Positions 21,340 through 23,661 of a DNA stretch of 64,000 bases are shown one piece after another. The stretch is from Alicyclobacillus tolerans (GTDB lineage: Bacteria > Bacillota > Bacilli > Alicyclobacillales > Alicyclobacillaceae): NCBI RefSeq assembly GCF_001447355.1, contig NZ_JXBW01000003.1:1-64000 (forward strand). Direction: 5' to 3'. Positions within the stretch are counted from its first letter, which is position 1. Each line of letters starts with the position of its first letter. The translations under genes were made by a program, and so were the position numbers. The notes under the pieces are model-generated. The model was not told where the DNA came from. It saw only the letters and a program-made list of their open reading frames with translations, and did no database searches.

Positions 21340-22494
21340 TCAGCGGGTGCTCGATTGCACGGCGCCCGCCAGCACGCCGTACATCTCGCAAACTCGGTGA
21401 TAATGGCCAAGCAACTGCTTGCTTGGTCCCTCCCAGTCAAGCGACCGGGCGATCTGAAGACCGCGCTCGCGCACAGCGCTACGCTTGCCCTCGTCGGACA
21501 TGACCGTCTTCACAGTTTCGATCATCTCGTCTGTCGAATTCGGATTAAAAATAAACCCAGCTCGTCCATCCTCCAACACCTCGCGCGTCGGTGGACTATC
21601 CGCGGCGAGAATCGGTAACCCCGTTGCCATCGCCTCAAATAACACCAAACCGAGCGTCTCGGTAGTCGATGGAAAGAGAAACGCATCTGCCGAGGCATAG
21701 GCCTGCGCAAGCTCTTCGCCATGCATGTATCCCGTAAAATGAGCCTTCGTCCCCGCAAAAATGCGTTCCAACTCAGGGCGGTGCGGACCATCCCCGACAA
21801 TCGCCAGATGCAAGTTAGGAATGGCATCCAGACACGGCCGAATGCGCTCAATATTCTTTTCCGAAGCCAAACGGCCAACGTACAGAAGCACTGGATCACT
21901 GGGCCCAGCGTTTGGAGCTAGGCGTTTGCGCATTTCGTCACTGCGCTGCGCCCGCTGATAGAGGTCGACATCCACACCACGTTCCCACAGTTCGAGATTC
22001 TGGAACCCGTGCTTCTCAAGCTCGCGCAACGTAGCACGCGAAGTGGCCAGATTCAGCTGTGCCCGATTATGTAAGGTTCGGAAGTACCACCAAAGTGCAG
22101 GTTCCAGAAAATCGAGCTTATAGTGATGAGCATATGCTGGCACATTGGTGTGATAGGAAGCAATGAGGGGCAAATGGAAGCGCCAAGCGTAGTAAATCCC
22201 ACCTATCCCCAGAAAAGCGGGATTGACGACGTGAATCAGATCCGGGCGAAACGCCTTGACCTTACGCCCAATTCGCGGCATGGGCAAGGCGTACCGCTTT
22301 TCCGGATAGAGGATGAATGGCATCGCAGGAATGCCAACGATGGTTGCGGAGGCGTACTCCCGCGGCGATCCAGACGGCGCGAACAGCAGCACCTCGTGAC
22401 CTTCTCGCTCCAGATAACGCAATGTGGCGCATAGGCGCGTGACGATCCCGTCGGTCGACGGCAGGAACGTCTCCGTAAACATCGCAATCCTCAT
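21340..22494 (-). CDS. sqdX: Glycosyltransferase, probable sulfoquinovosyl-diacylglycerol synthase (SQD2/SqdX-like)
   Basis: This 384-residue GT4-family glycosyltransferase probably transfers sulfoquinovose from UDP-sulfoquinovose to diacylglycerol at the inner membrane face. Diagnostic stretches resemble plant SQD2: FRPDLIHVVNPAFLGIGG, IASYHTNVPAYAHHYKLDFL, LELWERGVDVDLY, YVGRLASEKN and the nucleotide-binding STTETLGLVLFEAMATGLP. The gene starts nine bases after the UDP-sulfoquinovose synthase gene; its Shine-Dalgarno sequence GGAGGTAA contains that gene's stop codon, so the two are coupled. GT4 enzymes with similar sequence can use other sugars and acceptors; the assignment rests on similarity plus the neighbour. 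Confidence 0.85.
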   Translation of the reverse strand: MRIAMFTETFLPSTDGIVTRLCATLRYLEREGHEVLLFAPSGSPREYASATIVGIPAMPFILYPEKRYALPMPRIGRKVKAFRPDLIHVVNPAFLGIGGIYYAWRFHLPLIASYHTNVPAYAHHYKLDFLEPALWWYFRTLHNRAQLNLATSRATLRELEKHGFQNLELWERGVDVDLYQRAQRSDEMRKRLAPNAGPSDPVLLYVGRLASEKNIERIRPCLDAIPNLHLAIVGDGPHRPELERIFAGTKAHFTGYMHGEELAQAYASADAFLFPSTTETLGLVLFEAMATGLPILAADSPPTREVLEDGRAGFIFNPNSTDEMIETVKTVMSDEGKRSAVRERGLQIARSLDWEGPSKQLLGHYHRVCEMYGVLAGAVQSSTR

Positions 22495-22503
22495 GGCTAT
22501 AGG

Positions 22504-23661
22504 TTACCTCCAGGTCGCATTCGGACGAATGACATTGAAATCAACGCGCTCGCGATAGCGTTGTGCGGTCTCGATCAACTCGCGAATCAGCTCATCAGAC
22601 AACAGGTGTGGTTGCAGTCCGAGATCAAGCAATTTGGTGTGCACAGCATGATAATAGTGCTCTTCCTTCTCGACGCGCGGATTCGGCAGGTGTGCAATCT
22701 TAGCGTCAAGCCCCATCTCACCGGCGACACGCTGTACGCGTTCGGCTAATTCGAGTACCGAGAACTGCTCGGTAAACTGGTTAAAGACGCGGAATTCACC
22801 GCGATCCGCAGGATGTAACGCGGCGAGTTCAATACATTGTAAAGTGTCGCGAATATCGAGAAACGCACGCGTCTGACCGCCTTTTCCATAAACGGTCAAA
22901 TCGTGACCGACGGCCGCTTGGATACAAAACCGGTTCAACGCGGTGCCAAACACGCCATCGTAATCGATACGATTATACAACTGCTCGTCCCGTTTGGTCT
23001 CGGCTGTCCACAATCCGTAGACAACACCTTGGTTCAAGTCGGTTGCACGAATGCCCCACGAGCGGCAGGTAAACATGATGTTGTGGCTGTCATGCACCTT
23101 TGACAAGTGATAGAACGAAAACGGCTGTTTCGGATACGGAAGCACGTCCTCGCGGCCCTTGTGTTGGATGCGGATGTAACCTTCTTCGATGTCGATGTTC
23201 GGCGTCCCGTATTCACCCATTGTACCCAGCTTAATCAGGTGGCAATCAGGTGTATTCTCCTTCATTGCGAACAGCACATTCAGCGTCCCGACCACATTGT
23301 TGACCTGGGTGAACACGGCGTGTTCGCGATCAATCATCGAATACGGGGCAGATCTCTGTTCAGCGAAGTGAACAAATGCCTCAGGTTGGAAATCTCGAAA
23401 AACATGCTCGACAAATTCGTAGTTCTGCAAGTCACCGAAGTAGAACTTGATGTCTTTGCCGGAAAGCTGCTTCCATGCAGCCAGGCGCTCTTCCATCGTA
23501 GCAATGGGCGTTAACGACTGTGTCCCGAGTTCTTTATCCCATTCGCGACGAACGCAGTTGTCCACGATGGCAACCTCGTGCCCCCGCTCGGAAAAGTGCA
23601 GGGCCGTAGGCCATCCACAGAATCCGTCACCGCCGGCAATCATAATTTTCACGTTGATCAT
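22504..23661 (-). CDS. sqdB: UDP-sulfoquinovose synthase (SQD1/SqdB)
   Basis: This enzyme makes UDP-sulfoquinovose from UDP-glucose and sulfite, the committed step to the sulfolipid headgroup. The 385-residue short-chain dehydrogenase-type protein is remarkably like plant SQD1: [10 protein letters not shown] (NAD-binding GGxGxxG, 10-16), [34 protein letters not shown] (catalytic Thr147, Glu150), [14 protein letters not shown] (Tyr184, Lys188), and [14 protein letters not shown]. The start at 23661 (ATG) or a GTG three codons later, both near GGGGTGA, is unresolved. It has its own promoter and is followed immediately by the glycosyltransferase gene. Psd is encoded upstream on the same strand. 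Confidence 0.95.

Follow-up and report, generated by a model that had tools for sequence, protein, structure and literature searches.

Disruption of either sqdB or sqdX leaves Synechococcus without sulfoquinovosyl diacylglycerol (SQDG) (PMC5638391). For SQD1, the Arabidopsis counterpart of SqdB, the catalytic residues have been named as Thr145, Tyr182, and Lys186 (PMC4388408), and a study of plastid lipid genes describes the SQD1/SqdB trees as complex, with two major cyanobacterial clades (PMC6946739). Bacillus coahuilensis is reported to have sqd1/sqdX together with membrane sulfolipids (data not shown there), which is read in that report as an adaptation to low phosphate (PMC4744853); its sulfolipid also figures in two reviews (PMC9594981 and PMC12890257). 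For Alicyclobacillus, the title of a 1976 paper by Langworthy, found in the references of PMC2063370, names a sulfonolipid from Bacillus (Alicyclobacillus) acidocaldarius; a preliminary description of the present DNA had also remarked that sulfolipid has been reported from the genus.

The locus considered here lies in the window, by which we mean the whole 64,000-nucleotide stretch of Alicyclobacillus tolerans DNA that was analyzed. It resembles the cyanobacterial system in having the same two enzymes, and sqdX likewise follows sqdB in 47 of the 63 named cyanobacterial loci found among the 80 best of at least 587 confirmed SqdB relatives, with identities of 63 to 70% for SqdB and 47.7 to 52.3% for full-length SqdX. 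In cyanobacteria, however, 72 to 817 nucleotides (nt) separate the matched stretches, whereas sqdX starts 4 to 9 nt after the sqdB stop codon in 23 loci of the Alicyclobacillus family. The locus also differs in its putative overlapping ribosome-binding site, in a host without a reaction center match, and in the separate clades that its proteins form in the trees. The likeness to Arabidopsis rests on SQD1, SQD2 aside: the window SqdB is 65.4% identical over 381 amino acids (aa) to the crystallized enzyme (BLASTP) and keeps its catalytic residues, but cyanobacterial SqdB stands closer to SQD1 (up to 74%).

By description, B. coahuilensis has the same two genes in a Firmicute; one species is concerned there, whereas here the pair occurs in most sampled genomes of the order and one family has its own conserved promoter-like element. 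Sulfolobus acidocaldarius Agl3 is likewise described as a UDP-sulfoquinovose synthase of an acidophile (PMC4388408), but there the sulfoquinovose goes into N-glycans (PMC9594981). Because sqd1/sqdX of a Bacillus has already been published (PMC4744853), the present pair is not the first in a Firmicute. An open-access literature search (titles and starts of abstracts, with most subscription journals outside its scope) returned nothing on sulfolipid genes of Alicyclobacillus. In the literature searched we met no description of an order-wide linkage, of the promoter-like element, or of the apparent replacement of sqdB.

Layout of the gene pair

Our comparisons cover 61 genomes, namely the window's own and 60 relatives, 55 of which (G000 to G054, tallied by hand) belong to the order. 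We take the order to be Alicyclobacillales, and the family names of the sampled genomes are likewise presumed; assignment to family and order rests partly on A. shizuokensis (L122), which falls among family f1 in the trees. The preliminary description had placed a two-gene cassette at 21340-23661 in a spore-forming host. Both open reading frames (ORFs) are exactly as placed, on the minus strand with sqdX downstream (Table 1), and a Spo0A_C match in the genome fits a spore former.

Table 1. Features of the sqdB-sqdX locus and of the decayed sqdB in two relatives
Feature	Position	Strand	Description	Basis
sqdX	21340..22494	-	predicted GT4 sulfoquinovosyltransferase (SQDG synthase), 384 aa	ORF, Pfam, reciprocal best hit, trees
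TGGAGGTAA	22504..22512	-	final two sqdB codons plus stop, with GGAGG at 22511-22507	
sqdB	22504..23661	-	predicted UDP-sulfoquinovose synthase, SQD1 type, 385 aa	ORF, SQD1 identity, alignment, tree
promoter-like element CTTGC-N11-AAAACTTGTACATTG	23701..23731	-	putative promoter	comparison of relatives
psd	23777..24574	-	phosphatidylserine decarboxylase; upstream neighbor of sqdB, outside the pathway	
sqdB remnant	L134 2653-3172 (G004); L135 2653-3176 (G007)		between psd and intact sqdX	

The sqdB stop codon and the sqdX start lie 9 nt apart, and the GGAGG in front of sqdX runs into the end of sqdB as TGG-AGG-TAA (22512-22504). This is the overlap that had been described for the ribosome-binding site of the glycosyltransferase (GT), and GGAGG (22511-22507) probably serves sqdX in that role. 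Thirty loci were compared, of which 4 lack a GT beside sqdB; TGGAGGTA is present in all 23 Alicyclobacillaceae loci that have an adjacent GT and is not conserved in the second family of the order (3 loci). On the other side, psd precedes sqdB on the same strand at a spacing of 115 nt; it adjoins sqdB in 27/27 Alicyclobacillaceae loci and, within the stretch compared, in 0/3 loci of the second family. Further upstream of psd, recG was recognized by eye. Past the sqdX stop, a 16-pair hairpin (21288-21249, minus strand) lies inside a convergent amidase gene; it is a possible terminator with a weak T-tract, and the total of sites in that scan was not above that in shuffled sequences.

The genome supplies plausible sources of both substrates, galU (UDP-glucose) and phosphoadenylylsulfate (PAPS) reductase (sulfite) each scoring over the cut-off, and has no match to the photosynthetic reaction center model Photo_RC. 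Both results agree with the earlier proposal of a lipid made without photosynthesis.

SqdB is of the SQD1 type

A phmmer comparison with SQD1 (PDB 1i24) gives 598 bits (E 8e-179) over residues 5-385, which is full length. The motifs said to be shared with SQD1, LNQGVVYG included, are found in the sqdB translation. Thr145, Tyr182, and Lys186 of SQD1 correspond to the invariant columns T143, Y180, and K184 of a six-row alignment (numbering 2 lower), so that the window SqdB has the triad of the short-chain dehydrogenase/reductase (SDR) family and, also in invariant columns, the TMGEYG loop. It is predicted to synthesize UDP-sulfoquinovose in the manner of SQD1. The NCBIfam model for UDP-sulfoquinovose synthase (NF041015) has a cut-off of 575 bits, which SqdB misses at 481.2 bits and which is reached in 0/61 genomes. 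SQD1 (484.7 bits) and the Calothrix (476.1) and Sinorhizobium (332.3) proteins also fall below it. Since SQD1 is a verified member, the cut-off is not diagnostic, and the miss is a property of the model.

A tree of 54 rows (53 of 130 distinct SqdB rows plus SQD1) places the proteins of Alicyclobacillaceae, the second family, and two other Bacillota in one clade (98/93), with four further Bacillota rows outside it. A separate clade (96/89) holds cyanobacteria, Acidobacteriota, one Desulfatirhabdium metagenome-assembled genome, and SQD1, and within it SQD1 groups with cyanobacteria (99/96). The label "plant-like" given earlier to the pair is therefore loose. It holds for the enzyme type, SqdB being of the SQD1 type, but not for descent, most Bacillota proteins forming a clade of their own. 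A recent transfer from plants or cyanobacteria was considered as well and is unsupported, with SqdB in its own Bacillota clade (98/93) and the GT groups separate.

SqdX is the counterpart of the cyanobacterial sqdB-adjacent glycosyltransferase

The GT carries the Pfam GT4 domains PF13439 and PF00534, and its translation contains ETLGLVLFE, which we take to be the EX7E motif. A reciprocal best hit was obtained with the one cyanobacterial genome used, that of Calothrix brevissima. There, the top match of the window GT is the gene that follows sqdB (402.7 bits; next, 103.3), and the best match of that gene in the window genome is the window GT (400.4 bits; next, 77.5). We required a downstream GT to score at least 300 bits to the window GT and to lie no more than 2 kb from sqdB in the same orientation. 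Forty-six of the 47 cyanobacterial matches are full length, and the identity range given above refers to these. The GT is accordingly an ortholog of SqdX, the cyanobacterial references being SqdX by position and similarity. This reciprocity and similarity set it apart from unrelated mannosyl- and glucosyltransferases, a grouping that the preliminary description had named as one that would speak against its reading.

Linkage of sqdB and sqdX is not universal. Within the same best 80 of at least 587 SqdB relatives, a GT match lies downstream of sqdB in 2/15 acidobacterial loci and in 1/2 other loci (A. shizuokensis), while no GT relative of at least 300 bits occurs around sqdB, in the stretch compared, in 16/63 cyanobacterial and 12/15 acidobacterial loci. 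In 13 of those 16 cyanobacterial loci, at least 1.5 kb of contig still follows sqdB, so there sqdX is either missing or encoded at another site.

Among curated models, the best 25 of the 39 NCBIfam models that match the GT are all far under their cut-offs, as they are for two cyanobacterial sqdB-adjacent proteins. The top one, GlcN-PG synthase (NF053787), gives the GT 155.7 bits against a cut-off of 480 and is also the top model for the two cyanobacterial proteins (154.9 and 166.3 bits). Because these score alike, the GlcN-PG match does not discriminate. For the GT trees, 103 distinct rows were reduced to 79 plus PimA (23 chosen cyanobacterial rows; the truncated L080 left out) and then to 40. 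The careful tree of 40 rows keeps the Alicyclobacillaceae apart from the cyanobacteria, on a backbone that lacks resolution. PimA was discarded as the root, its branch being about 10 changes per column. Structure prediction of the GT without an alignment gave a mean pLDDT of 37.5 and was set aside.

A conserved promoter-like element precedes sqdB

The preliminary description gave the pair its own promoter beside psd. A scan for the sigma-70 consensus finds no site between psd and sqdB, but a conserved promoter-like block does lie there (23731-23701); it was missed because it scores 8/12 and the limit of the scan was 9. Comparison of relatives suggests TTGC as the -35 and TACATT as the -10 element of a putative promoter. 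GAAAACTTGTACATTG is invariant in 12/12 same-genus upstream regions, which have a mean identity of 65%. The best match to the 16-bp core reaches at least 14/16 in 24/27 Alicyclobacillaceae loci, made up of 12/15 loci from other genera and of all 12 from the same genus, from which the core was read (11 of the 12 genomes are common to the two sets). In 5,400 letter shuffles, the best match never rose above 13/16. The spacing between TTGC and the AAAAC that follows it is 11 nt in 24/24 loci that have both (a different set of 24; one locus ends early upstream).

The full pattern has a single exact match in the genome. The 16-bp core alone, at up to 3 mismatches, has 35 genome sites compared with 20 in the control. 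We also looked for a regulon sharing the block and found none (one exact and one 3-mismatch site versus 1 in the reversed control). Upstream of sqdB in seven rows of the second family and in two other Bacillota, the core is lacking (8 to 11 of 16). The three exceptions among the 27 family loci are G034, G023, and G019. G023 and G034 have no adjacent sqdX, and the sqdX of G019 (L148) has an internal TGA; yet in G022 and G028, where sqdX is likewise not adjacent, the core scores 14 and 15 of 16, so loss of the core correlates only partially with loss of sqdX.

Distribution and linkage in the order

SqdB (at least 455 bits) is present in 47/61 genomes, all inside the order. An SqdX-like gene is present in 47 of the 55 genomes of the order, and every one of these has an SqdB-type enzyme, which is SQD1-like in 45 and of another type in 2. 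The two genes are adjacent in 42 of the 47, in reversed order in seven (G038 to G042, G045, and G046), and apart in G004, G007, G022, G023, and G034. G028 (97% complete) and G026 (62%) have SqdB but, at E 1e-20, nothing SqdX-like; G030 (82%) has a partial SqdB and no SqdX-like match, and G044, G048, G050, G051, and G054 have neither gene. Outside the order, G055, G057, and G058 have SqdX-like matches (28 to 41% identical) and no SqdB. In a sample of the phylum, SqdB is rare, being found at E 1e-50 in 7/398 genomes, the window's own included; within the stretch compared, a GT relative adjoins sqdB in 2 of the 6 others and in none of the remaining 4, for two of which that stretch is short.

The pair is carried by the same-genus relative G002 (89.6% and 82.5% identity; locus L015). 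Taking G002 as the A. acidocaldarius type strain, the pair is present in that species.

The psd-sqdB locus of G028 (L164) lacks sqdX, and its lone sqdB may reflect either another user of UDP-sulfoquinovose or an assembly gap. In G043, a gene for a GtrA-family membrane protein (L180, 5352-5795) stands between sqdB and sqdX, and the sqdB-sqdX gaps of G047 and G053 are similar in size. The GtrA-family protein may flip or anchor the product.

Decay and probable replacement of sqdB in two genomes

In two genomes of the same genus, G004 and G007, sqdB survives only as patches in the roughly 520 nt that separate psd from sqdX. Where they can be aligned, these remnant intervals share 77% identity, with 26 gaps. 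sqdX is intact in both and has remained under selection (dN/dS of 0.055 between the two), and the promoter-block stretch is 94 to 97% identical to that of G012. A second SqdB (347.6 to 348.1 bits) is encoded elsewhere (L160 near 5821; L161 5587-6834). It is 65 to 66% identical to the Sinorhizobium meliloti protein and 50% to the window SqdB, and it groups with S. meliloti SqdB at 97/91. S. meliloti SqdB makes sulfolipid. The promoter core was not found near the replacement SqdB, the best match (12 of 15) being far from the gene. On the simplest reading, the supply of UDP-sulfoquinovose was replaced and SqdX would still be in use.

A clade of SqdX-like paralogs

Extra SqdX-like genes, 53 to 61% identical to the window SqdX, are present in G001, G007, G017, G024, G032, and G036. 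The sole, relocated SqdX-like copies of G022, G023, and G034 fall in the same paralog clade, on one side of a 100/100 branch. The paralog loci are L166, L169 to L178, L183, and L184. The neighbor tested is a YegS-type diacylglycerol kinase in 4/4 loci (L170, L174, L176, and L183); in L170 there are, in addition, genes for an acyltransferase and an SDR and one of the monogalactosyldiacylglycerol (MGDG)-synthase type. By eye, no such kinase is seen beside the paralogs in L169, L171, and L177; in L166 (G023), a PHO4 phosphate transporter lies beside the paralog. Just 2 of the 90 SqdX-conserved columns are lost in the majority of the 13 paralog rows, so that sequence alone does not fix the sugar.

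Proposed pathway and alternatives

We consider it very probable that the sqdB-sqdX pair makes SQDG and does so with the promoter and coupling proposed here. SqdB with bound NAD+ would oxidize UDP-glucose at C4, remove water to give a 5,6-ene, add sulfite from sulfate assimilation, and reduce the product to UDP-sulfoquinovose. SqdX would then transfer sulfoquinovose to diacylglycerol, yielding an anionic membrane lipid without phosphate, for which the acid stability proposed in the preliminary description may be a reason. Both genes would have a conserved promoter of their own, situated downstream of psd, and their translation would be coupled. The reading of sulfolipid synthesis from similarity and synteny in the preliminary description is thus well supported as a prediction.

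There is a slight chance that UDP-sulfoquinovose is made but that the GT4 enzyme passes the sugar to a surface glycan or an S-layer protein, along the lines of the Sulfolobus Agl3 system. Agl3, to our knowledge, has no SqdX partner. It makes UDP-sulfoquinovose in another acidophile (PMC4388408) and sulfoquinovose is part of N-glycans in Sulfolobus (PMC9594981), but a haloarchaeal protein (L041), the one named archaeal SqdB relative compared, is only 36% identical. The persistence of SqdB without an SqdX-like match in the 97% complete G028 would suit such a role, whereas the reciprocal best match with a cyanobacterial sqdB-adjacent gene, the lipid setting of the paralogs (a diacylglycerol-kinase-type gene in 4/4; an acyltransferase and an MGDG-synthase-type gene in L170), and the sulfonolipid on record for the genus (title of Langworthy 1976, via PMC2063370) all argue for a lipid acceptor. 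Even less probable is that the GT, merely a neighbor of sqdB, transfers glucose or glucosamine to diacylglycerol, the Firmicute SqdX clade having changed its donor: the best NCBIfam match of the GT, the 2 of 90 columns lost in most paralogs, and the words "Novel glucosamidyl glycolipids" in the 1976 title for the species (via PMC2063370) point that way, but the cyanobacterial proteins show the same GlcN-PG match, all 47 genomes of the order with an SqdX-like gene have an SqdB-type enzyme, and another SqdB type is present after sqdB loss.

Beyond SQDG synthesis by the pair, we suggest tentatively, at rather less than even confidence, that SQDG may be a core and separately regulated lipid of the order, that selection for it may have been strong enough for a lineage without its sqdB to gain a distantly related SqdB type, with the old promoter and sqdX retained, and that the paralogs may belong to a second, so far undescribed sulfo- or glycolipid pathway. 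The sulfonolipid described in 1976 from Bacillus acidocaldarius, which is reportedly SQDG, would be tied to a specific gene pair, open to deletion or expression. The two genomes with a lost sqdB and another SqdB type offer a ready natural experiment; through the conserved promoter-like element, regulation by pH, phosphate, and sulfate becomes testable. Our findings suggest that SQDG synthesis can be an old, conserved trait of a nonphotosynthetic order and not a stray acquisition.
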